A stretch of 64,000 nt of DNA, from the NCBI RefSeq assembly GCF_949628265.1, contig NC_088787.1, forward strand, positions 34,708,844 through 34,772,843, written 5' to 3'. How positions within the stretch are numbered: position 1 is the first letter of the stretch; each line of letters opens with the position of its first letter. The position numbers and the translations under genes are program-made. This DNA is from Cloeon dipterum (lineage: Eukaryota; Arthropoda; Insecta; Ephemeroptera; Baetidae). Shown piece by piece: positions 176 through 59,255 of this stretch. Below the pieces are notes generated by a model. The model saw nothing but the letters and a program-made list of their open reading frames with translations. It ran no database searches and had not been told where the DNA came from.

Positions 176-3100
176 TTATATTAAAGATTCACACACCCCG
201 TTAGTCACGGACTGCACTGCTTGCATGCGGTAAGGCGGGTCGAAACTAAAAGCAATCGCGTAGTTGCTTTCCAGGGTGTCATTCGACACTTTGTTCTGTG
301 CGAGCGTGAAATCGAATTCGGCATCCGAGTAGCACCACGAGGGCCGATCCAGCTTGCCGAGGCGCGATGCAGCCACTGCGAACATTTTTCCAGTGCCCAA
401 CAAGGAAGCTACAAAATAAAATAAGTCAGGATGATTGAAACAGATTAAAAAAAAAAATCTAACCGATTCCACTCTTGATCATGCAGTCGTATTTTTCCTT
501 GGTGTCAATCGTGGCCAGTCGCATACCGTAGCCGCAACAATATTTCAAATTGAAATTCATAGATAGCTATTTAAAGGAAATAATTTAGTGATTCTTTCGG
601 CAAAAAATATATACCTGTGAAGGTGTTGTATAAACAAAAAAATTGCGGTTGCACGCATGCGTCATTTGGCCTTTATATAAAGCAGTGAAGTTATGGATAC
701 TGAAATCTATAGTAAAAATGGTGTAAATTATTGTGTTTGAAATTATTCGTATCAGAATCACTCGTCATGGTCGCTATCATAGTTTTTAATTCAGCCTGCA
801 CAAATATTTGTGATGCTTTTTTACAATTAATTTATTTAATTTCAAAAAACCTTCTCAATGCATTCAAAATCAGGACAAACGCCTTTCTCAGGTGGAAGAA
901 TGAGTGGCGTCTCCTGCATTAAGAATTATTCGAAATAGAAAAGTTACAAAATTAAACGAACTGTTATGGCTAATTCCATCGATTCCACAAATCCACTAAA
1001 AGAATCAGGGGAATTTTCCTGGCCACAAGCAAGAAGGCTGCTACATTTATCGCAAGGATCCATTCCCTCTTCAATTTTATTAGAGTTTATTAGCCAACGG
1101 TTTTTTATTTAAACCTTACTGGCTGCATTGGTGCAAAAGTCCATTGTGGATGCCATGTCAATTAATTTATCAGAGTCGTCCGACGATATTCTTTGAAATG
1201 AGGCGAATATTTTGTCTTCTGCCAGATTTCCATCGATAAACTAATTTTGTAGCTTTTTAAAATAATTATTTTTTTTAAATTTGATTGGAATAACCAATCC
1301 AGTTCCCTCGCCGTAGCATTTTAAAAAGCATTTCTCATTTAAATCGTTCGGCGTGGAGTTAAAAACGGTCTTTACTTGATCTGGAATTTATTAAAAACCA
1401 AAAATTAAAAAACCAAACATAACTTTTTAAACGCACTTCCTGTTAAATTATATTCCTTTGCGCATTCTCTTTCAACGGCATCCAATAATGAGCTAGTTTT
1501 TGCTCTCCCCTAATTAACACAAAATTTATAACTAATATTCAGTAAAGAAAATTCCAACGCACCTCGCAAGCATATCGCATTTTCGTGTTGCAATCTTCAT
1601 CGTACAAAAGTCCCTCTGAAGACACGACTAAACATGTTCCGTTTATTAATATCAGATCCGGCTGGCCTTTTGCCCATCTAAAAGAATTTTAATTATAGCC
1701 GTATGGTGATCCACTATTGGCCCAGATTTATTTTTCCCGAATTACGATTAAGGAAATTGCAGCGGGGGCCAGATGTGCGTTAAAATTGGTTCGCACTGCG
1801 CAGATCCAAGATGGCGTCTGAATGTGGGAAACAAAAAGCTCTCTTTGGATTGCCGTACGAGTGTAAAGAGTTTAATTTTACGATCCAAAAGACACAATTA
1901 GTACAAATTATGTCACAATATTGACGAAAACTTGCTTCTTTTCGAGCATTTTCACGAGACAGTTTTTTCCCGCCATACTCCACTGGACGCCATATCTGCG
2001 CGTCGCACGAATCTGGCCCCCGCTGGAAAATTGCTTCAACGATAAGAGGAAATTCCCCGCAAAAAGAATTTTTTATAACTCTGAACCATCTTTAACGAAA
2101 ATTTCGTAAATTTTGGTTAAGAATGTTTGGTATTTTCTGTTTGTGTATCATTTTTTGGGAACTTTGGGATTAGCCGTAACAAAAATTAAACTCAAAACCT
2201 AGCACTATCGCGGAGGAGTCTGTTGGATGAGCAGAATCCGAAGTTATTCTTGCATCCTTGGTCTGTGGCAGATGTCCAGAAATATTCCCCTGTGATGCTT
2301 GCATCTAAATAATATTTTAATTCAATAAAAAAATAAACTCTTGAAATTTAATACTCTTAAAGGCGCCCACTAAATGTGAGTACATCAAATCGTGGTGCAA
2401 ACTGAGCAGTTTCAATCCCACGGAACAGCAAGCAGAAAGCGAACCTAGAAACTAAACCTTTAATTAGAAATTTGATTTTATTGAATCTTTTTGGGTGACA
2501 AACAGTTCTGGAATCGTTGGGATAGCTTATCATGAGCACACGCGTGTCGTTTTTCACCCAGATCCCATGCTGCTTTGGATCTAAAATAAATATTAAAAAT
2601 AATGTTGAACCGGTTGCCATTTTTTTCATACCAATAAGAACTTTGGTGGTATTGTCCGCCAGTGATTTATCAGAAATTTTCCTAATATCACAAATTTTTA
2701 AAGTTTCTTTTTAATATATATTTGAATATTAAAACCATTTTGTTGCATGGGACATTTGGGCACACGGGAGATGTACAGGTTTGAGGTATTTTTGGTCCCT
2801 GTAACCGAATCAGACTTGATTTCATGATTAATTTTCAGTTAATTAAAAGCAAACCTGGCAGGAAAAAACGCTGAGAGTCGCACAATCTCTGTCAAAAAGT
2901 CTTAAATCTTTGTCTGCTCTTGAAATTTCCATCTGAACGCAGTTTTCCGATCCATTGGCGTAATTGGGCTCATTTGAGGCCCAGTATCTTGCCACATTTT
3001 TGCCACTGCTGCACCAATAATAGGACGATGCATTTTTCCTTCTTAAAGCAAACGTCCAATAAAATCTACTGATTCTACTTTTGTAGGCTGGAAATTCAGG

Positions 3101-13974: not shown

Positions 13975-16900
13975 TCAAACTTCACAAACAATATTTGAAA
14001 CAGTTTGATTCGCCTGCATTTTGAAAGGCGGATCAAAGCTGAACGCAATTGCGTAGTTGTTTTCCAAAGTGTCACTAGATAAAAAGTCCGGTGCAAGAGT
14101 CAGGTCGAATTCTTTGTCCGAGTAGCACCACGTGGGCCGATCTAATTTTCCAAGACGAGAAGCAGCCACCGCGAAAAGCGTTCCAGATGTGACATTAAGA
14201 AGGGAAACTATGCAAATTTGAAGAATATAATAGTCGATGCAAGAATTTTAAATATGAATTAAACCAATTTTGCTCTGGACCATGCAGTCATATTTTTGTT
14301 TAGAGTCGATTGTGACCAGCCGCATTCCACGGTCACAGCAAAATGCCATATTTGCGGCCAGGGATCGCTGTAAAAATTTTAAAATTGCTGCGAAATTGTG
14401 AAATGGTATTCGGTTCGTACCTTTAAGGTGGTTGAATAGGCAAAGAATTTTTTATTGCACGCAAACGTCGCTTGATAAACATTTGAGGATCCGTAGGGGT
14501 AAAGGGTGAAATCTATTTTAAAAGTATGTATAAAAGACCGTCTTTTACGAAGTTTCTGACCACACCAGTCGATTCTTGAGGGTCGAATTAGGTAACATAG
14601 ATGTTTTCCGGCCAAAAGGTCCAGCACGACGTGCGAACTTTTTTCCCGCCAAAACAATATCAACGTAAATGCGATAACTGCGCATGCGTCAGAGCTGGTT
14701 TGAGCATTTGTAAAGAGACCGTCTCTAGGAATGACTTGTTTGTCAGGTCCAGCCAGCTCCCACGCATGCGCACTTCTCGCATATACGTTCATATTGTTTT
14801 GGCGGGAAAAAAGTTCGCGCGTCGCGCTGCACTTTTTGGCCGGAAAAAACATACATTTTACCTAAATCGACCCTCAGGAATCGATTGGTGGGCTCAGAAA
14901 CTTCGTCAAAGAAGGTCTTCAAACATTTTAGTTAAAAATTCATTTTAGCATACTCTGGGCCGTAGTCACATAAACTGCTAGCTCGGCCTAAATAATGAAC
15001 TTTGATTAAAAATTTAATATAAAATCATTTGGAACTTTTCTGTAGCACTCGTATTCAGGGCAGACTCCTTTCACAGGAGGCAAGAAAAGAGGAGATTCCT
15101 TAATTTCAATTTTTTATAAAGCTGTGAAAATTAATAAGAATGATTTTATACTGTTATTGATGATTCTACGGTTTCCACAAAATCATTTATAATATTTGGA
15201 GAATTTTCCTGACCGCAATGGAGTAGACTGGCACAAACATCGCACGGATCCATGCCCTCTGAAAATTAAGATTTAATTTTTAACCAAGATTTAAATCAAG
15301 GTAAAAAATTACTAGAAGCATTTGTGCAGAAGTCAACCGTCGAGGACATGTCTAGCAATTTTTCAGTGTCGTCCACCGTGATTTTTTGAAAAATGGAAAA
15401 TATAGTGTCTGTTGCAAGGTTTCCATCAACGATCTGGAGGAGAATTTAATTTTTTAAATGGAATTTGTGCTTATTTTAATCACGAACTAGTCCAGTTCCC
15501 TCGCCATAGCATTTTAAGAAGCATTTTTCTCTTAATTCCTCTGGCGTCGAGTTGAAAAGTCTGTTCACTTCGCCTGGACAGTTATAATTCTTAAATTTCG
15601 ATTAATTTTCACAATTATTAATCGCACTGCTCGTCAGTTTATACTCCAGAGCGCATTCTCTTTCCACCGCATCGAATAATGAGGTCGTTTGAACCCTTCC
15701 CTAATTTTATTTTAAATAAAATTCCGGAATTTATGCAATTTAAGTCAGTTTATACCTCGCAAACGTATCTCATTTTTGTGGTGCACATTTCGTCGTGCAA
15801 AAACCCGTCTGTGGACACGGCCAGACAGGTTCCGTACGCTTCTTTCAGGTCAGGTTGCCCTTTTGCCCATCTGGCACGAAATTTAATTTATTATTAAACA
15901 AAAAAATAATATATAATATAAACCTAGAGTTATCGCGGAATAGTCTACTGGACGAGCAGAAGCCGTAAATCTTTTTGCACCCTTCGTCAGTCGCTGCGGT
16001 CCAGAATTTCTCCCCTCGGATGCTTGCATCTGGGCCGAGATTATTATTAAAAATAAATTTAAAATATGTTTCAAACTGTTAAAGGCGCCGACGAGAATCG
16101 AGTACAACACATCCTGATGCAAACTCAAAAGCTTCAATCCCACGGCACAGCACGCTTGAAGGGAGTCTACAAACTGATTTAATTTTTTTATTAAGAATGA
16201 GTGAAAATCGTTTTTGCAACGCACAGATCTTGCATCATTTGGATGACTTATCATGAAGACACGTGTATCGTTTGTAATCCAAACTCCGTATTTTGTCGGA
16301 TCTAAATTTAAAAAATTTTAACATGGCTGGCAAAATAGTGAAAAAATACCTATCAAAACCTTAGTACGTTTGTCTGCCAGCGTTTTAAAATAAGTATCCT
16401 GTTGAAATATGTTATTTAAAGACCATCCTTGAAGAGTTTTTGAGCACGCCAATCAATTTCTGAGGGTCGAATTAGGTAGAGTGGATGTTTTTTCCGAACA
16501 AAAAGTCCAGCGCGATGCGCGAACTTTTTCCCACCAAAACAATACGAACGTAAATGAGATCTGCGCATACGTGAGAGCTGAATGGATGTGACAAAGAAGT
16601 CATTCGTCTCTCTGCAAGTGCTCAGCAAACCAGCTCTGACGCATGCGCACTTCTCACATTCATTTTGTTTTGGCGGGAAAAACATCAACTTTACCTAATT
16701 AGACCCTCAAGAATTGATTGGTGTGCTCAGAAACTTCGTCAAAGGTTGTCTTTAACACGTAAAATCTTTGTAATAAATTAGTAAAAACCTTTTTTAAGCA
16801 CGGATCTTTTGGGCAGACTGGAGAATCGCAATTTCTAGGAATTATCGGTCCCTATGTTCATTTAATTTGTAATTTCAAATAATAATAATTAGCACGATCA

Positions 16901-19590
16901 AACCTGGCAAGATAAAACACTGACTAAAGCACAGTTCTTGTCTGCGAGATAAACCGTGTTTTCTGATCTGTCCATTTCCATCTGAACGCAGTTTTCAGAG
17001 GCGTTTTTTACGTAGTTGGGCTCGTCAGCGGCCCAATTCGTCAAAATATTGTTTCCGCTTCCGCACCAGCTATACGAATCGACCTTTCTTGACCTTCTCA
17101 AACCGTGCGTCCAATAAAATCTGCTGATTTTTTTCCTGTAGTCTTAAGATTAGAAAAATTAATACCGGAAAATAAATTCTTTAAGCGCTGTTCAAACTTT
17201 CTTCTTCAAATAAAGAACTAAGACAATTCACGTTTGTCTCCAGCTCGATACTCATAGGTGCCATTCCGATTTTACAACATTCCTCAACGTTTTGCTCCCA
17301 GTTAACCTGGAAAATAATGTAGTTGCGAGTTTTCTTTCATATTTAATTAAAGATGAGTAATAACAAATCTTCTGCCGAATAGAATCAACTTTCCACACAT
17401 TTCCACCCAAAATCCGTAAGCAGACATGTCTAAAAATTGTTACTAATAAAAGGAACTAGTTAAAATTATATAAATTATACCTTTTAACGATCCATCTTGA
17501 TTGAATAGGGATACCTACAAAATTACGGGGTAATATAACCTTTTTTAGCTAAATTAAAACATGTTTTCAAACATCTTTCCTGCACGAAGAAGTGTTGCAT
17601 GCTGGTGAAACCTTATACACGCATACATAAAATTAAATATTAATTTCAAGTTGCGGATTCTCAGCACCTGTGGAGTTTTTGTTGTTGAACTGGGTGGTTT
17701 AGTTCCCTTTACCATCCATGGGGGTGGAACGTATGTAGTTTTAATAGACGATTTTTCACTAGATGCTTTTATTGTTGTTGTTGTTGTCTTTTAAGGGTAA
17801 AATATTCTCTTAGTAGTTTTTAAGGTACTTTTCCGTATCAATTTGCTCCTCTTAAAATGATTTATAATTTCTTATGATGCGTTGAAAACAAAAATCAGTA
17901 AACTCCAAAGATTTTTGTATTATTTGAGAAGCTTTTTTTGTTTTGTTTTTTTTACGGAGATTTTTTGGTTTTAACACATCAAAAGAAATTAATTTAAGAG
18001 CAGATTGAGTGTTAAATCGCAGTGGGAGAGCTTAAAGACCCTCTTTGAAGAAGTTTCTGAGCACACCAATCGATTCCTGAGGGTCGAATTATGAAAAAAG
18101 TGGATATTTCTTCCGGCCACAATGTGCAGCGCAAAGTGCAAACCTTTTTCCCGCCAAAACAATATGAACGTATATGCGGGAAGTGCGCTGGATCTGACAA
18201 AGAAGTCATTCGTACACGCGGAATCTCTGCAAGTGCTCAAACCAGCTCTCACGCATGCGCAGTTCTCGCAAATACGTTCATATTGTTTTGGCGGGGAAAA
18301 AGTTCATATGTTGCGCTGGACATTTTGGTCGCGAGAAAAATCCACTTTACCTAAATCGACCTTCAAGAATCGATAGGTGTTCTCAGAAATTTAGTTAAAC
18401 ACGGTCTTTAAATTAGAAAGTAACCACTTGCGCCATATCTATTGGTAATTACTAATTAAACTATAATACCAATGGAATTTGTGTAGATGATGCACTACTT
18501 GGTAATTTTGTGCTCGGAAAAGTAGAAACAGCAGTAGTTGAGGTCTGTGAATCGATTCGTAACGAGTTAGAATAGTGAAACAGAATCGCGTCCAACTCAA
18601 CAGCAGCTCATTTTTAAGCGGAAATAAAAACGGTTGCCATAGCAACACAGCAATGGCTTCCAACATACAATTCCTAGAATTGCTGAATCATTTGAAACGT
18701 TGCTCGCCTCTGCAGCTTTTTAATATTTTTTTACAAGTTGGGAAAAATACTGAATTTTTAAAAATTTGAAAAAAAATAAAAGAGTCGCACTCATTTTTGT
18801 TGCTTTACTTGAAGATTAATAATTGGTGCTCGGAGACAAATTGATATTTTTGAAATAAAATACAAATTTCATTTGTGCCATACACTTAATTAAAAAAATT
18901 CTAACCTCCAGAGGCGTATCCAGGGTGGTTTTGACGTCACCGGGAATTGGAATAATCGCCGGAATAATCTCACTACTTCCAAATAAAGATGAAGACGTGG
19001 CAACCTAAATTAAACAATAAAAATTATAAAAATTAAAAAAAAAATACTGACATTGTTTTTTGTAGTTGACTCAAGCTGAATACGAAATGTGTCGTCTGCA
19101 CTTGCTAGATTTGTGTCAGCTAAACTGGCAATGAATTCTGCCTTAAAATAATACATAATATAATAGAAAAAGTAGAATTTTTTAATTTAAATAAATTGAT
19201 ACTGGCGGAGTATATTGTGTGTATTGTGGAACGACAGTGGGCTGCGTTGCTTCAAATATTTCATCCGCGGCCATTTCTCTGGAGTTTATAGTCCCTGCTG
19301 AAGATAATTCCGTTGGGGAGGTCGGAATAAAGTTATTTGCTTCAGTGACGTCGTTGGAAGCTTGAAAAGACGAACTTGAATTTAAGATCGTCAATTTCTC
19401 CACCTTAAAATTAATTTTTTAAAAGAAAATAAATCTTTAATTTTCCAAAATCTTACAAACAATGTTGTAGATGCTGGAGAAGTCCTTTTAAATTTCGGCG
19501 TTATGCACGAATCCTTGCCGCAACATTTGATAATGTAGTTTTTCCTCCTATGCGTGATTTGTTGTTTTCGGCGCCCTTTAAAATATCAAC
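13975..19590 (-). CDS. CTLD-OBP fusion protein, copy B (multi-exon)
   Basis: This has the same exon series as copies A and C. The 5' part holds the Cys/basic exon with CCGKDSC (about 19460-19580), then Ser/Thr-rich linker exons (19185-19400 and others down to about 17670, with TTTTIKASSEKSS). Lectin-like domain 1 is at about 17515-16900 (SWCGSG, DEPNY, ENCVQME), domain 2 at about 16405-15755 (ACCAVGLKLLS, GQPDLK, a YVCE-type end), the OBP domain at 15152-15700, and domain 3 at 14421-14516, about 14270-14370 and 13975-14207 (AFCCDRG, ATFACNKKFF, RPTWCY). The stop is at 13975-13977. A signal-peptide exon was not found, so the 5' end is open. Three hairpin MITEs sit in its introns or linker region. 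Exons read are in phase; function is inferred from the domains only. Confidence 0.75.
14533..14920. mobile_element. Hairpin MITE, family 1, copy 1
   Basis: Imperfect palindrome. The left half reads GTTTCTGACCACACCAGTCG, then GAGGGTCGAATTAGG, then CCCGCCAAAACAATAT; the right half is the complement, ending CTCAGAAACTTCGTC. The loop holds ACTTGTTTGTCAGGTCCAGC-type sequence. It lies in an intron of copy B. Confidence 0.85.
15152..15700 (-). other. OBP (PBP/GOBP-like) domain exons of copy B
   Basis: Exons at 15629-15700, 15486-15580, 15314-15436 and 15152-15260 (approximate borders) give ERECALEYKL (C1), EKCFLKCYGEGTGL (C2, C3), IVDGNLATD, DFC (C4), GMDPC (C5) and the C6 of SLLHC eight residues after C5. 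Codon phase is continuous across the joins checked. Confidence 0.73.
16418..16754. mobile_element. Hairpin MITE, family 1, copy 2
   Basis: Same palindromic family: AAGACC start, GAGGGTCGAATTAGG, two CCCGCC/GGCGGG motifs beside AAAACAAT, and CTCAGAAACTTCGTC near the right end. It lies in the intron after the ADKT-KVLI exon of copy B. Confidence 0.85.
18034..18410. mobile_element. Hairpin MITE, family 1, copy 3
   Basis: Same palindromic family, with GAAGTTTCTGAGCACACCAA on the left and its complement near 18375-18395. It lies in the linker-exon region of copy B. Confidence 0.85.
18905..19403 (-). other. Ser/Thr-rich linker exons of copy B
   Basis: Short minus-strand exons here encode a low-complexity extracellular linker rich in Thr, Ser, Pro and acidic residues, for example NSSSSFQASNDVTEANNF and EATQPTVVPQYTQYTPP at 19185-19400. 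This composition is typical of O-glycosylated, mucin-like spacers. It corresponds to the linker exons at 24.2-25.7 kb in copy C. Confidence 0.5.
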
Positions 19591-20378: not shown

Positions 20379-23300
20379 TCATTTTTCACACACAACATGC
20401 AAACTAGTTTCGTAAGCCTTCATTATTAAAGGCGGCTCGAAACTGATCGCAATTCCGTAGTTGGTTTCTAATGTATCGTTTGAGACAAAATCCTCCGCAA
20501 GATTAAAGTCGAATTCGGTGTCAGAGTAGCACCACGAGGGCCGATCCAACTTTCCCAAACGCGTAGCACCCACTGCGAACGTCGTGCCGGGGGGCAGATT
20601 CAGAAAAGTTGCTGCCATATTCAAGTAATTTTATTGGAAAAGAAGAGATTATAGGGTAAAAACTAACTAATTCTATTCTGGACCATGCAGTCATATTTTT
20701 CTTTCGTGTCGATTGTGGCCATACGGTATCCGCGGTCGCAGCAAAACGCAAGATTTCTGGACAAGGTTCGCTATGCAAAACAAATTTATTCTGTTTATAG
20801 ATAAATAAATTGACAGGAAAGTTGCAAGATTCTGTATTAAAGACTGGTTTGAGGTACTTTCTGAGCTCACCAATCGATTCTTGAGGGTCGAATTAGGTAA
20901 AATGGGAGATTTTACGACCAAAAAGTGCAGCGCACCGTGCGAACTTTTTCCCGCCAAAAGATAATATGAACGTATTTGCGAGAAGTGCGCATGCGTCAGA
21001 GCTGGTTTGAGCACTTGCAGAGAGACCGCCTGTACGAATGACTTTTGTGTCATAAGTTCCAGCCAGCTCTCACGCACGCGCACTTCTCGAATTAACGTTC
21101 GTATTTGTTTGGCGGGAAAAAAGTTCGCACGTCGCGCTTCACTCTTTGGCTGGAAAAACATCTACTGTACCTAATTCGACCCTCAAGAATCGATTGGCGT
21201 TGTTAAAAACTTCGTAAAATATGGTTTTAAAGGATAAGAATGAATTAAATTTGATTTTATAATTCAATTAATTCACAGAAAAAAACATCGATACTTATCG
21301 TACTTCCACGTTAGTCGCAAAAACGTAGAATTTCTTGTTACACACAACTGTTAATTGGAGGACAAAAGGAAGTACAACTGCTTGGCCAATGAAACGCGTG
21401 AAATCTAGAAAGATAATATTTCGCAAATATCCGTTACGCATCAAATAATTAATTAATAATACTTTTGGCAGTAGCCAATAATTTCACTTGATCAGGCTAA
21501 AATGGAGAGATTAAAATTTTAATCATAAATTTTTTATAGAACATTTTTAAAAATACTTTTTTGATGCACTCATACTCAGGACAGACGCCTTTCACAGGTG
21601 GCAAAATAAGAGGCGATTCCTGAAATGTAAGGTTATAGGAAAAGGCTTTTAGATAATTTTTATCCCAACTGTTATTGTCAGCTGCACTGTTTCCACGAAT
21701 TCCTCAAACTCCTCCGGCGAGTTTTCCTGGCCGCAATTCAATAAACTGCCACACTTATCGCATTCGTCCATGCCCTCTGAGTTTTCAATCCTTGATCATG
21801 AAATTCAAGGAAATAAATTGGTTTTATACTCGAGGAGTTGGTGCAGTAGTCCATTGCGGAGTACATGTCAAGTAATCTTTTTGTGTCGTCAAACGTGATC
21901 CGTTGAAAAGCAGCAAAAATACTGTCCATTGCCAAATTTCCATCAATGAACTGGAGGATCAATTATTAATGATTAAAATGATTTATTTTTATTTGGTCCC
22001 ACGAACCAATCCCGTTCCCTCGCCGTAACATTTCAAGAAGCATTTTTCTCGTAATTCGTCTGGCGTTGAATTAAACAGGGCTTTTACTTCACCTTTGTAA
22101 GAAATGATTTGGTATTTTAAATAATTTTTAAATGAAAAAATTATACTTCTCGTCAGTTTAAACTCGGCAGCACATTCTCTTTCAACAGCGTCCAATAAAG
22201 ACGGAATTTGGGCTCTCCCCTGTTTAAATTAATTATTTTGGGTCTTTTAAATTAATAATTTTAAAAACCTCGCAAACGTATCTCATCTTTGTGTTGCACA
22301 ATTCATCGTGCAGAAGTCCGTCTGAGGAAACGGCCAGACAAGTTCCGTTTGAGGTTGACAAATCGGGCTGTTCACTCGCCCATCTTATTAAAATAAATAT
22401 GAAAAATGAATTAAAATCCTTAAAATTTACCTAGCATTATCGCGGACAAGTCTGTTTGTGGAGCAGAAACCGAAATTCTTCTTGCATCCTTGGTCTGTGG
22501 CTGCGGTCCAGAATTTCTCCCCTCGGATGCTTGCATCTGGGCCAAAATTTAAATAAAAACAGTCTTTGATGAAGTTTGTGTTGACACCAATCGATTCTTG
22601 GGGGTAGAATTAAGTAAAGAGGATGTTTTTCGCGACCAATAAGTGCAGCGCGACGTGCGAACTTTTTCCCGCCAAAACAATTTGAACGAATAAGCGAGGA
22701 CTGCGCATGCGTCAGAGCTAGCTGGTTTTGACAATGAAGTCATTCGTACATGCAGTCTCTCTGCGAGTGCTTAAACCAGCATTAAACCAGCATGCGCAGT
22801 TCTCGCAGTCATATTATTTTGGCGGGAAAAAAGGTTCGCACGTTGCGCTGCACTTTTTGGGCGGAAAAATATCCACTTTAACTAATTTGACCCTCAAGAA
22901 TCGATTGGTGCGCTCAGAAACTTCATCAAAGACGGTCTTTAATATAAAAATTTCATTAAAAAATATTTCCAACTGTTAAAAGCGCCGACGAGAATCGAGT
23001 ACATGACTTCTTGATGCAGACTCAGCAGTTTCAATCCCACGGCACAACAAGCCGCAAGCGATTCTACAAACTGACTCAATATTTGTGAAAATTAAAAGAA
23101 TTTCTTTAATAAGTAAGCAACGCACAGTTTTTGTATCACTGGGGTAACTTATCATGAAGAGGCGTGTATCGTTTGTAACCCAAATTCCGGATTTTGATGG
23201 ATCTAGATTAAATTAAAGAATTAAAATCCCGTTTGCGTGAATTGATGTAAAATATACCTATCAAAACCTTGGTTGCTTTGTCTGCCAACGTTTTAAAAAG

Positions 23301-26112
23301 AGCGTCCTGTTATAATAAACCGTTAAATTTTCTTTTTGGGTTATTATTTAAAAAATAACTCTTTTCCTGCAAGTGTAAACTGGGCAAACTGGTGAATCAC
23401 AAGTTTTTGGAATTATCGGTCCCTATATACAATTAAATTAGGTATAAATTAATTTTGATCATATTTATCAAACAAAAACTTCGAACCTGGCAAGAGAGGC
23501 CGCTGACCAGTCCGCAATTGCTGTCCAAAAGATATAGCATGTTGGTTGCTCTGCCAAATTCCATCCGGACGCAGTTTTCTGAAGCATTTTTTACGTAATT
23601 TGGCTCACCTCCGCTTCCCCAATTTCTAGTAATATTTGCTCCACTGCTGCACCAATAATATGAGGAAACGACTTCCTCCGTCTTTCTCAAACCAAAAGTC
23701 CAATAATATCTGCTGAATCTATTCCTATAGTCTTGAATTTTTTATTAATTTAAGACGTTAGTAAAGTTTTGCCTTTATTTATAATTACCATCATCTCCAA
23801 TTAGAGAATTTATACACTTGACGTCTGTTGCAAGCTCCAAATCGATCGGCGTCATTCCGATTTTGCAACACTCCTCAACATTTTGCTCCCAATTAACCTT
23901 GAAAATTATTCATGACTTGATTTTTTGTGTTTTAAATTAATTAAAAATAATTTACGAATCTTCTGCCAAAGAGGAACAGCTTTCCACACATTTCCACCCA
24001 AAATCCGTATGAACCCAAATCTAAATCAATGTTCCTATTCAAATTTGTAATTAGAAGCGTTTGTTTGACTATTAACCTTTTAATGAGCCGTCCAGATTGA
24101 ACCGAGACATCTTTTGTTAATTGTTTTATTTTTTATGCAATTATTCAATCAGATTTTAAACGAACCTCTTTGTTGCACGATGGAGGGCATGTTGGGAACA
24201 CCTTTTAAGACAGGATTTAGTAATAATTAAAGTGAAAAGATAGATAATTTTCACCATTGGAGCTTTAGTTTCAGGAACTTTCCACGGGGGAATGAACAAC
24301 TTTTTAGTAGTTGTTGACTTTGAAAAATTATCAGATTGAGAAATAATTTTTCGTGTGAAATTTACCAACAATGGAGGTGCCACAGTCGTACTGTCACTGG
24401 TTACCTCAATGCTAAACTGTTTGTTTGGAGTAGACAACATAGTCTGCGAAATAATTTGTTTAAGAAAGGTAGACACGCGCAGTTGCGGAAAGCTCGATCG
24501 ACTGAATTCGTGTGATTAACACAGACAATACATATTATAAAATATGCATTTTTGACGAGGTTTCTGAGCACATCAGTCGACTCTTGAGGGTCGAATTAGG
24601 GACAGTGAAAATTTTTTCCGACCAAAATTCAGCGCGACGTGAGATTATTTTCCCGCCAAAACAATATGGACATATATGCGATAAATGCGCATGCGTCAAG
24701 AGCTGGCTGAATGTGATAAAGAAGTCGTTCGTATAGGCGGTCTCTGCAAGTGCTCCAATCAGCTCTCACGCATGCGCACTTATCGCATATGTGTCCATAT
24801 TGTTTTGGCGGGAAAAATATCACTTTTACCTGATTTGACCGACAGGAATCGATTGGTGTGCTCAGAAACTTCGTCTCTTAATGGTTTGTCCTGTTTTTTG
24901 CTCGATTTCGATTCCTTTTTATCATATTTCAACGGAATATGTTTATAATCTAAGGTAGAACTGAAATTTTCTTATGAAAAAGGTTAGAAAAATTTACCAA
25001 AGTAGTCGAAGTTGCAGATTGATGGGCAACATTAGGAAAAGCAGTAGTTTTTATCTGTAAAACAATACATTTTTTCATACGAATAGGTACAAGAATTTTT
25101 GAAATATCGAATTCGTGCCAGACATATCGTTCTCATCCGCAGGAAACGGGAATAAAACACAGCGTCAGCACATTCATTTTCTCGTGACTCATTTGAAACA
25201 AGTTGGAAAACGGTGCATAAAAACGGCAAGTGGATGTCATTTTCAATATTAAATTATTTTTTAAGCAAATTTAGAAAAAAATCTAACCTCAACGGTTGTA
25301 GTCATGGGATGGACGGGGATATTCGTTTCAGTTCTTATAATTTCGGTTTCATAATTTCCTTCAGCCTGTAATTTTAGCACGTTATAATTATCTAGGTAAT
25401 TCGTCGCTCAACAAAGTTCACATTAGTGTTCGCAATCGTTAACACCTCGCGTCGAGCCGTGGGAAACGTTACAGCCCCATCCGGTTGCTGCAAAAATGAG
25501 TGAAATTTTTTTATTTTAATATTACATCATGAAAATACTGAGTCAGTCGTAGTTTTAGTTTCGCTATTAAGCTGGAGAGATGCGAGTTCTCCAGATATTG
25601 ACTCGGTTGTGACATCAAAAGTCTGTATTAAATTGTTATAGAATTGATTAATTCATCATTCAAGCAACTCTCGTCTCGCCTCTTTTTCCGGAATATTCAC
25701 GAGAGACGGACTGGCGGTGGACGAATCTTTCCTTGTCTTAAAATTCAATTGTATTTATTTTATTTTAAATTAGTATAAATAACCGCAATAAAAACTTACA
25801 GTCACTGATTGTGAGGGAGTTTTTGCAGTCCGTCTTCTTGCAAGGGAAGAGTTATTCGATTTCGGATTGATGCAAGAATTTTTTCCGCAGCATTTAATTA
25901 TAAAATTATTTCTCCTGTTCTTACTGCGTTGCTCTGTAAATTTAAAATTTAATTCCAACTGGAAATTGCGCAATTAAAAAATACTTTTTTTAAATTTGTT
26001 GCCCTCTGCGCAGATCTGAAATAAATTTATGTGAAAAATAGGGTTTTTTGTTCAATACTGTTACCATGAGCACAAGAACGAGAATTATTGCTGTTTTGCA
26101 TCCAAAATTCAT
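20379..26112 (-). CDS. CTLD-OBP fusion protein, copy C (most complete)
   Basis: Exons read on the minus strand: 26065-26112 (signal peptide, MNFGCKTAIILVLVLM), 25985-26015, 25800-25933 (CCGKNSC), about 25689-25737, 25539-25622, 25422-25487, 25288-25365, 24998-25054 and 24255-24443 (Thr-rich linker), 24166-24201, 24077-24110, 23956-24020, 23789-23897 and 23487-23731 (lectin-like domain 1, GGEPNY and ENCVRM), 23360-23422, 23258-23306, 23126-23202, 22974-23070, 22431-22536 and 22269-22383 (lectin-like domain 2, FWTAATDQGC and EQPD, ending YVCE), 22147-22219, 22007-22092, 21830-21950 and 21670-21776 (OBP), 21557-21619, about 21300-21405, 20668-20770 and 20379-20611 (lectin-like domain 3, ending VVCEK). 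Phases agree at nearly every junction; one tiny exon near 21.45 kb and one donor near 25.69 kb are unresolved. Each lectin domain is preceded by a short paired-Cys hinge, as in long-form C-type lectin domains. A secreted multidomain recognition protein is inferred. Three MITEs interrupt its introns. Confidence 0.82.
20838..21230. mobile_element. Hairpin MITE, family 1, copy 4
   Basis: Same palindrome family, starting AAGACTGG and containing GAGGGTCGAATTAGG and GGCGGGAAAAAAGTTCGC. It lies in the intron before the ATIDTKEKYDC exon of copy C, a different intron from those occupied in copy B. Confidence 0.85.
21670..22219 (-). other. OBP (PBP/GOBP-like) domain exons of copy C
   Basis: Joined exons give the spacing C1-x25-C2-x3-C3-x42-C4-x9-C5-x8-C6, within the classic OBP range. 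Landmarks are VERECAAEFKL, STPDELREKCFLKCYGEGTG, FIDGNLAMDSIF, MDYC, GMDEC and SLLNC. One extra cysteine (CDKC) follows C5. All introns fall inside the domain and are shared by the three paralogues. Confidence 0.78.
22557..22941. mobile_element. Hairpin MITE, family 1, copy 5
   Basis: Same palindrome family, with GAACTTTTTCCCGCC on the left and GGCGGGAAAAAAGGTTCGC on the right. It lies in the intron between the two halves of lectin-like domain 2 of copy C. Confidence 0.85.
24551..24877. mobile_element. Hairpin MITE, family 1, copy 6
   Basis: Same palindrome family, with the arm variant AATATGGACATATATGCGAT on the left and a near-complementary variant on the right. It lies between linker exons of copy C. 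Confidence 0.85.
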
Positions 26113-27230: not shown

Positions 27231-28330
27231 TATTGCGCAGGCATACAAGCGTTCTGCGCACGCATAAAGTGCATAAGAATCAACTGCGCTTGCGTGAAGT
27301 GGAATGAAATGCATGCAATCAAGATGTACTAACAGCTTTCTCGGGGGACATCGCATGCGCAGATGTTATGTAGTTGCGCCCAAAAACCTTCACTGCGCAT
27401 GTGCTTGATTGTCTGAAAGTAACCGCGCAGGCGGTTTCTGAGCACCAACCACAAGAGTGTGGGCGTGAGACCAAATTTAATATATGCACGTTGCGATAGA
27501 CAGTGTGCACATAAGGTTTAGATACCTACTGCGCATGCGTAGTTACTGTCAACTCATGCGCAGTAAATTGCAGCTGGGATTGACGAGAAAGACATGGTGA
27601 GGTAGTGCATATTCCCTATGCGCATGAGTTAGATTGTCGAATTAGGCTGCGCAGACGGTTTCTGCGCATTTAGGGCGTGCGCAGTTTGTGGAATTTAAAT
27701 TTAAATAGCATCTGGATTGCCAATACCATTAATTCGCTAATTTTGGATAATTTCATGCTCTGTAACTTGATTTGGAAAACATTTGCGTGCTATTGCGCAT
27801 GCGCAGTAGATTTCTCCGCTGATAAAGCAGCCTAAAATATTTAAAACGAGGTTTTCTGGTTGTCAGATTTTCAGTTTCTGCGCATCTTAGGCATGCGCAG
27901 ACAGTTTCTGTGGAGACAGTTTCTGCGCAGACAGTTTCTGCGCAGACAGTTTCTGCGCAGACAGTTTCTGCGCAGACAGTTTCTGCGCATCAAGGGAATG
28001 CGCAGTTTGTGAATTTGAAATTAAGAGAACCTTTGGACTGCCAGTAACATTGATTTGTGCATATTTTACGGTTCCATGCTCTGTAAACTTATTTTCGAAA
28101 TGTTTGCGTGCTATTGCGCATGCTCAGTAGATTTCTGCGCTGATAATGCGGATAATGCAGGAAATGTTAACGAAAAATTTATGAGAGTGAGGTATTCTGG
28201 TTGTCAGAGAGAAAAGATTAATTTTTATCTGGCTGCGCAGAAGTTTTCTGCGTATATAACGCATGCGCAGTGCCTCAAATTGTACAAATTGCATGATTTT
28301 AATGCATTTTTCCCTGAATTCATGTTGCGG
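27230..28330. promoter_or_regulatory. Cluster of GCGCATGCGC-type palindromes
   Basis: At least ten matches or near matches to TGCGCATGCGCA occur here, at about 27352, 27396, 27530, 27554, 27617, 27797, 27891, 28114 and 28259 among others. The palindrome matches the binding motif of NRF-1 and of its fly relative Erect wing. The cluster lies between the divergent ends of copy C (5' end) and the EGF-repeat gene (3' end). Regulatory function is inferred; it could equally be a decayed repeat array. Confidence 0.4.
27896..27992. repeat. 15-bp minisatellite
   Basis: About six tandem copies of a 15-base unit, CAGACAGTTTCTGCG, with one variant first unit (GTGGAGACAGTTTCT). The unit also occurs singly nearby (27655-27670 and 28240), suggesting local expansion from the GCGCA-rich sequence. 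Confidence 0.92.
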
Positions 28331-57629: not shown

Positions 57630-59255
57630 CATTTCGTAATTTTCGCATCTCCATATCTTCGGTTCTAACCATTAGAATTGCAAAAACAAACCACCGTTAG
57701 ACTTGTCTCAACCACTTCTAAGTAGCAGAAGGGTTTGGTGGTTCTTGCCCTTCACCCTTAAGTTGCCTTACGGCTTGAACATTGCAACAGAGCGCGGCGG
57801 CAGAAACGGCGGTCGCTTATTATCAAAATTGTGGCAAAGGGGATGAAAGGGGATGGTGGTAGGCACCCTTTAAATAGTGTCATTGGTTAGAGGAGATTGA
57901 GACGAGTGCAACGATGGGTAGGTTTTGCAATTCTGATGCTTAGAACCCGAGATTTGGAGTTGCAAAATTACCAAAAAATGAAAAATGTACTATATTTCGA
58001 CATTTTATATAATTCGCACTTCCACATTAAATACTAAGCATTTAAATAGCCAAAATTAACCACCGTTGGACTCATCTCGATCTCCTTTAAGCAACTGAAG
58101 GGTTCAGGGGGTGCATAGACCAATCTTTTTTCATCATTTTTTGCCGCAATTTTGATAATAAGCGACTACCGCTCCTGGCGCCGCGCTCACTGATGCATTT
58201 TTAACGCTGTATAGCAACTTAGGGGTTGAGAGCAAACACCCCTTAACCTTTTATTTGCATAGAAGAAATCATGACGAGTTCAACGGCGGGTAGTTTTTGC
58301 AATCGAGATACTCAGAACTCGAGATACAGAGTTGCAAAATTTCGAAAAACGCGAAATAAAGTCATTTTTTTATTTTTGTGATTTTTACAAATCCTAATCT
58401 CCGGTTCTAACCATCAGAACTGCAAAACTACCCACCATTGGATTCTTCTCGACCTCATTTGAGCACCTGAAGGGTTCAGGGGGTGCAAATACCCATCTCA
58501 AATCATCCTCTTTGCTGCAATTTTGATGGTAAGCGACTACCGCTCGTGGCGCCACGCTCACTGCCGCATTTTCAAAGCTTTATGGCAACTTAGGGGCGGA
58601 GAGCAAACATCCCTGAACCTTTCAGCTGCTTAGAACTTTTTAATTTAAATCCAACGGCGTGTAATATTTGCATTTGAGGTACTTATAACCCGAGATATAG
58701 AGTTGCAAAGTTGAACAAAAACGCGAATTAAAGGAAATTTTTTTCCCTTTTTGTGATTGAAATCTCAGGTTCTAACATTGAAAAGTGCATAAATTACCAA
58801 TCGTTAGACTCGTCTTAAGCTATTTTAAACAACAGATGGGCGTTGGGGTGTTTTATCTGCACCCCAAAGTTGCCATAGAGCTTTCAAGACGCAACTGTGA
58901 GCGTGGCAGCGCCAGGAACGGTAGTCGCTTATTATAAAAATTGCAGCAATGATGGATGAAAGGGGGTGAATATATGCACCCCCTGAACCCTTCAGCTGCT
59001 CAAAAGAGGTCAAGACGAATCTAACGGTGGGTAATTTTCGAAATTCTGATACTTAGTACCCGAGATTTGGGTGTGCGAATTATCCAAAAATGTCGAAATA
59101 TTGCACATTTCTCACATTTCGTTAATTTTGCAACTCCAAATATCAGGTTCTAATCATCAGAATTTCTTCAACTGCCAACCATTGGACTAGTCTCAACCTT
59201 CCCTGACCTGCTAGACGTTTTAGGGGTGCTAACGACCCTCCACCCCAAGTTGCTT
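57630..59255. repeat. Repeat block, copy 2 of the 5-kb duplication
   Basis: Unit-by-unit match to 52620-54260, including the inverted unit with GCCAGGAACGGTAGTCGC at about 58910. The offset to copy 1 is about 4.99-5.0 kb. Confidence 0.85.

Follow-up and report, generated by a model that had tools for sequence, protein, structure and literature searches.

We report that a gene on the minus strand of a 64,000-nucleotide stretch of the genome of the mayfly Cloeon dipterum (C2:34708844-34772843, hereafter the window) joins an odorant-binding protein (OBP) domain to three C-type lectin-like domains (CTLDs) within one predicted protein. The gene occupies window positions 20379 to 26112 and, judged from its exon structure, is almost certainly a single fused gene. 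A preliminary description of this region, made from the sequence alone, had presented the fusion as a single odd gene; instead it belongs to a large family that is found in two mayfly genera, Cloeon and Neocloeon.

Structure of the fused gene

Thirty in-frame exons join into a single open frame running on the minus strand from an ATG at 26112 to a stop codon at 20379 and encoding 863 amino acids. The order along the protein is a signal-like N-terminus, a segment with the motif CCGKNSC, a Ser/Thr-rich linker, CTLD1, CTLD2, the OBP domain and CTLD3. The exons are distributed as follows (P numbers are database proteins).

26065..26112, minus strand: exon 1, start codon and signal-peptide-like segment (MNFGCKTAIILVLVLM); similar N-terminus in P0004, outside RefSeq model P0001.
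25800..26015, minus strand: exons 2-3, basic segment and cysteine motif CCGKNSC; CCGKDSC in P0004, CCGKNSC in P0005 and P0007.
24166..25736, minus strand: exons 4-11, a Ser/Thr-rich linker made up entirely of phase 0-0 exons, plus a short cysteine exon.
23487..24110, minus strand: exons 12-15, CTLD1 with EPN and ENC kept; family profile against PDB 1e-11 (mosGCTL-1), hhalign to CTLD2 98.6%.
22269..23422, minus strand: exons 16-21, cysteine linker and CTLD2 with a QPD motif; PF00059 4.8e-8.
21670..22219, minus strand: exons 22-25, OBP (PBP_GOBP) domain, residues 558-686, a phase 0-0 cassette; PF01395 2.4e-10, PDB OBPs.
20379..21619, minus strand: exons 26-30, second cysteine linker, diverged CTLD3 and stop codon.

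The position of an OBP domain between lectin-like domains in one frame, as first described, is upheld both by this join and by the RefSeq C. dipterum model P0001 (LOC135936163), with 99% identity over the part that spans CTLD1 to CTLD3. The introns that flank the OBP cassette are only 49 bp (CTLD2/OBP) and 50 bp (OBP/CTLD3 linker) long, both in phase 0, and no start exon belongs to the OBP part; these features speak against separate mRNAs for the lectin and OBP exons. RefSeq, an earlier annotation of Cloeon and related genes all show the same CTLD-OBP order.

Exon borders were picked by eye from AG/GT signals and compatible phases, those of exons 4 to 8 without outside support. The RefSeq model starts within exon 9, and exons 1 to 8 rest on the exon joining made here together with the similar N-termini of P0004, P0005 and P0007. 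The end of exon 25 (21670) was set after P0001, and its agreement with spliced alignment is not independent because P0001 is part of the alignment profile. The signal peptide was likewise judged by eye, without a predictor. Serine and threonine make up 32% of residues 49-225, as against 14% of the remainder of the protein.

Introns of the gene hold three inverted-repeat elements that resemble one another (20837-21230, 22554-22941 and 24554-24875), with arms of 41-123 nucleotides that are 74-93% complementary within a copy; they look like MITEs (miniature inverted-repeat transposable elements).

The OBP and lectin-like domains

The two domain families named in the preliminary description are both recognised by Pfam, which disposes of the case that no PBP_GOBP match exists. 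The excised OBP piece scores 40.9 bits against PF01395 (E 2.4e-10, cut-off 22; 36.1 bits in the whole protein), and the excised CTLD2 scores 34.1 bits against PF00059 (E 4.8e-8, cut-off 22.6; 31.6 bits in the whole protein). PF01395 is over its cut-off in all six of P0001-P0006, and a second OBP-type domain was found neither in these nor in the present protein, each of which holds one PF01395 stretch. The hallmark of the OBP family is a set of six cysteines with C2-x3-C3 and C5-x8-C6. Both spacings are present here within a 25-3-42-9-8 pattern, exactly as had been claimed, with one additional cysteine between C5 and C6 that is seen in 3 of 17 database proteins of the family. The six canonical cysteines are invariant in all 17, and mean column identity over the domain is 59%; this conservation is a constraint on the fold, not on the pocket.

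Searches of PDB sequences returned OBPs at 3.6e-5 from the single sequence and at 3.7e-9 from the family profile. The OBP-only spliced alignment score of this gene, which is in part a self-match, is 270, whereas no score rose above 20 among 18 shuffles or above 21 among four control stretches of the window. A predicted model of a paralogue superposes on the honeybee pheromone-binding protein ASP1; among the 50 Foldseek rows listed there is no OBP, and in the VIA list two OBP rows occupy ranks 37-38. The OBP here is an internal domain and not a small secreted protein with a signal peptide of its own.

CTLD1 and CTLD3 of this protein have no Pfam match. Their family profiles match C-type lectins in PDB (1e-11 for CTLD1 and 1.6e-5 for CTLD3), with mosquito mosGCTL lectins as the best matches, and profile-to-profile alignments link CTLD1 with CTLD2 and CTLD3 with CTLD1. 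A complete calcium and sugar site of a C-type lectin comprises EPN or QPD, a glutamate before the cysteine, and WND. CTLD1 keeps EPN, ENC and one aspartate and lacks the WND asparagine; CTLD2 keeps QPD and one aspartate and lacks both the glutamate before the cysteine and the WND asparagine.

A family of fused genes in Cloeon dipterum

The genome searched comprises 190 Mb in 10 contigs. Fused OBPs served as queries at E values up to 1 (68 + 72 OBP rows), and 150 of the 164 matches of a CTLD2-like search entered the pairing count. Among the matches listed, a CTLD2-like match lies on the same strand 50-2386 bp upstream of 47 of the 49 OBP-like clusters, a proportion that does not hold for the OBPs of the genome as a whole because the query was a fused OBP and distant standalone OBPs may escape it. 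No cluster (0/49) has a CTLD downstream and none (0/49) has one on the opposite strand. The paired CTLDs form 46 distinct loci on five contigs, one CTLD being common to two OBP matches, and CTLD clusters number at least 124 overall. The unpaired OBP-like clusters are at C1:8289105 and C3:13742288. The idea of a lone freak fusion was rejected on the strength of this pairing.

Of the 46 paired loci, 28 were modelled, and spliced alignment recovered both domains in every one of them, with OBP-only scores of 40-285 and CTLD2-only scores of 46-246; the corresponding null scores, from the 18 shuffles and four control stretches, did not exceed 21 and 22. Seventeen proteins went into the profile, and because some of them come from tested loci, close members partly match themselves: L050, L051 and other close loci score 584-767, whereas L032-L049 all score 284 or less. 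The lack of stops in these models is partly built in because the scoring penalises stops. All six OBP cysteines are in register in 24 of the 28; the other four (L037, L038, L041 and L047) have no first cysteine in register, three of them because the first OBP exon was not detected.

Among the matches listed, 78 of the 124 CTLD clusters have no OBP match. Fifteen such loci (L052-L056 and L058-L067), chosen by eye and several of them short, were also aligned: the OBP-only score exceeded 30 in 10 of the 15, lay between 24 and 29 in L055, L065 and L067, and was at the null level in L059 and L064. A total of around 100 fused genes is a guess, because these test loci were picked by eye and several are short. 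The unpaired locus on C1 (L057) gave ambiguous spliced scores of 34 for OBP and 29 for CTLD2.

Three family members lie inside the window, the other two being represented by the following matches.

15036..15700, minus strand: second CTLD-OBP paralogue, OBP and adjoining linker exons (C2:34723879-34724543); its spliced CTLD2-OBP-CTLD3 model scores 767 and retains the cysteine spacing.
851..1509, minus strand: third CTLD-OBP paralogue, OBP and adjoining linker exons (C2:34709694-34710352); spliced score 699.

An open stretch on the minus strand at 19391-19585 carries the motif KCCGKDSC and probably encodes the N-terminus of the paralogue that follows downstream. Elsewhere in the genome, an OBP-like exon at L001 1501-1671 (C3:3625495-3625665) scores 28.8 bits against PF01395, with no CTLD signal in the 3.2-kb stretch examined, and is perhaps a standalone OBP. 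The window also holds a 15-bp tandem repeat (TGCGCAGACAGTTTC) in 6.4 copies at 27894-27989 and a tandem 371-bp unit in 1.9 copies, with 78% matches, at 58051-58758.

Relatives and origin

When aligned fused proteins were used as the query, 17 proteins were recovered, seven of Cloeon and 10 of Neocloeon triangulifer, both Baetidae; PF01395 is found in all 17 and PF00059 is also listed for 12. The word-based protein search found relatives in Cloeon and Neocloeon only and none outside Baetidae, an absence that is weak evidence because the same search gave just seven Cloeon proteins, far below the number of loci in the genome. A search with the OBP alone found no relative among 341 candidates.

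In 22 of the 28 modelled loci, the intron at the CTLD2/OBP junction agrees in both profile position and phase. Pairwise distances of CTLD2 and OBP across 39 sequences, every pair sharing at least 41 columns, have a correlation of 0.83, a value reached by none of 2000 permutations. P0001, P0002, P0003, P0005, P0006 and P0014 were taken as duplicates of loci and excluded from this test and from the tree of the same 39 sequences; P0004, which is probably the same gene as L023, was kept. The tree is unrooted and contains only fused sequences, with no standalone OBP among them. One Cloeon locus in it clusters with a pair of Neocloeon proteins (98/95), and two long branches, L048 and L049, group together. 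Because of this mixed group the fusion is most likely to predate the split between Cloeon and Neocloeon, and the sequence comparisons point with good confidence to a single fusion event followed by duplication.

What the fused proteins may do

The explanation that we favour, with some reserve, is that of a single fusion before the split of the genera, many duplications, and a secreted product that acts as a surface-tethered ligand trap. According to this model the domains would have been joined once, ahead of the Cloeon/Neocloeon split, and numerous duplications of the fused gene would have followed. The protein would be secreted by virtue of its signal-like start and would carry a Ser/Thr-rich stalk that is probably O-glycosylated. 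Lectin modules and stalk would anchor it to a glycan-bearing surface or matrix, where the OBP cup could trap amphipathic or hydrophobic small molecules, and divergent copies may differ in the ligands or surfaces to which they are tuned, serving the chemosensation, or the defence, of the aquatic nymph. The trapping function, taken by itself, is put forward tentatively.

Several points weigh against this explanation. The WND asparagine is missing from all 27 domains of database proteins in which it was scored (11/11 CTLD1 and 16/16 CTLD2), and CTLD3 is strongly diverged, with a mean column identity of 41% (15 proteins) beside 61% for CTLD2 (15 proteins) and 57% for CTLD1 (11 proteins). The calcium and sugar site is incomplete, and the case for sugar binding is the weaker half of the proposal. 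As to origin, repeated fusion retains a small likelihood because the tree is unrooted and lacks standalone OBPs. The earlier proposal that the protein pairs sugar capture with a small-molecule pocket is only partly supported: the pocket is favoured by the invariant cysteines and by the predicted paralogue model, but sugar capture is disfavoured by the incomplete site and the diverged CTLD3.

According to the C. dipterum genome paper, the species has 191 OBP genes, the largest repertoire described by then; 82 of 167 are expressed in gills, and 121 of 152 clustered genes fall in four nymphal or pre-nymphal clusters (PMC7250882). The published 191 genes are probably in part the same as the fused loci. 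The word 'lectin' is absent from the main text of that paper, and the terms looked up have no occurrence in PMC11634025 and PMC7644658. Our literature searches, in which subscription papers were poorly covered, gave no recognised lectin-OBP fusion, and to that extent the architecture is, as first thought, undescribed. It is conceivable, though we would not press the point, that mayfly-specific lectin-OBP chimeras (perhaps about 100 C. dipterum genes) make up a large share of the OBP repertoire and act as surface-tethered ligand traps on water-exposed organs of the nymph.

A secreted immune recognition set, in which lectin modules and OBP pocket bind microbial glycolipids and the copies have diversified under pressure from aquatic microbes, seems to us less likely. 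The many copies, their strong divergence and their secreted lectin-like build would suit a recognition repertoire, as would the mosquito mosGCTL lectins that head the PDB matches of CTLD1 and CTLD3, but the nymphal and gill expression of C. dipterum OBP genes (PMC7250882), in so far as these are fused, may speak against it. Less likely still is a structural or secretory component of mucus or of the coat of gill or cuticle, with the OBP bundle serving only as a stable disulphide-rich module without ligand. The Ser/Thr-rich stalk, the many cysteines, the incomplete calcium site and the diverged CTLD3 are what such a matrix protein might display; the invariance of the OBP cysteines and the higher identity of that domain compared with CTLD3 argue otherwise, yet CTLD2 and CTLD1 are similarly conserved. 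That separate neighbouring OBP and lectin genes were wrongly chained by exon joining is hardly credible, given phase-0 introns of some 50 bp on both sides, the absent OBP start exon, and an order that recurs across many loci, is common to both genera and appears in more than one annotation of Cloeon.

Significance and comparison with known systems

OBPs are commonly treated as small free carriers. Because the join recurs in dozens of genes and in a second genus, part of the mayfly 'OBP' count may be a different kind of protein. With the OBP cup fixed between lectin modules and divergent copies present by the dozen, the reported mayfly OBP expansion would have to be read differently: counts made with OBP profiles may lump carriers together with multidomain proteins, and where gill chemosensation was deduced from OBP expression, another kind of protein may be partly involved. 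If the conjectured chimeras do act as surface-tethered traps, they would represent a kind of chemical capture protein that is not known in other insects.

The OBP domain shares its six-cysteine pattern, a Pfam score over the cut-off and PDB sequence matches with classical OBPs (PF01395; Anopheles AGAP005208 and AGAP010489, honeybee ASP1). Classical insect OBPs are small and each carries a signal peptide, whereas the domain described here is internal to an 863-residue protein. Two-domain OBPs and the D7 salivary proteins are multidomain proteins that repeat OBP-type units, in contrast to the single OBP unit among lectin units found here. With insect C-type lectins (PF00059; mosquito mosGCTL-1, -3, -6 and -20), which the CTLD1 and CTLD3 profiles match best, the proteins share the CTLD family; they differ in their extra cysteines, in the absence of the WND asparagine and in carrying three CTLDs and an OBP on one chain. 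The novelty is thus a new combination of two known domain families, and its main interest is the scale on which it occurs in mayflies.
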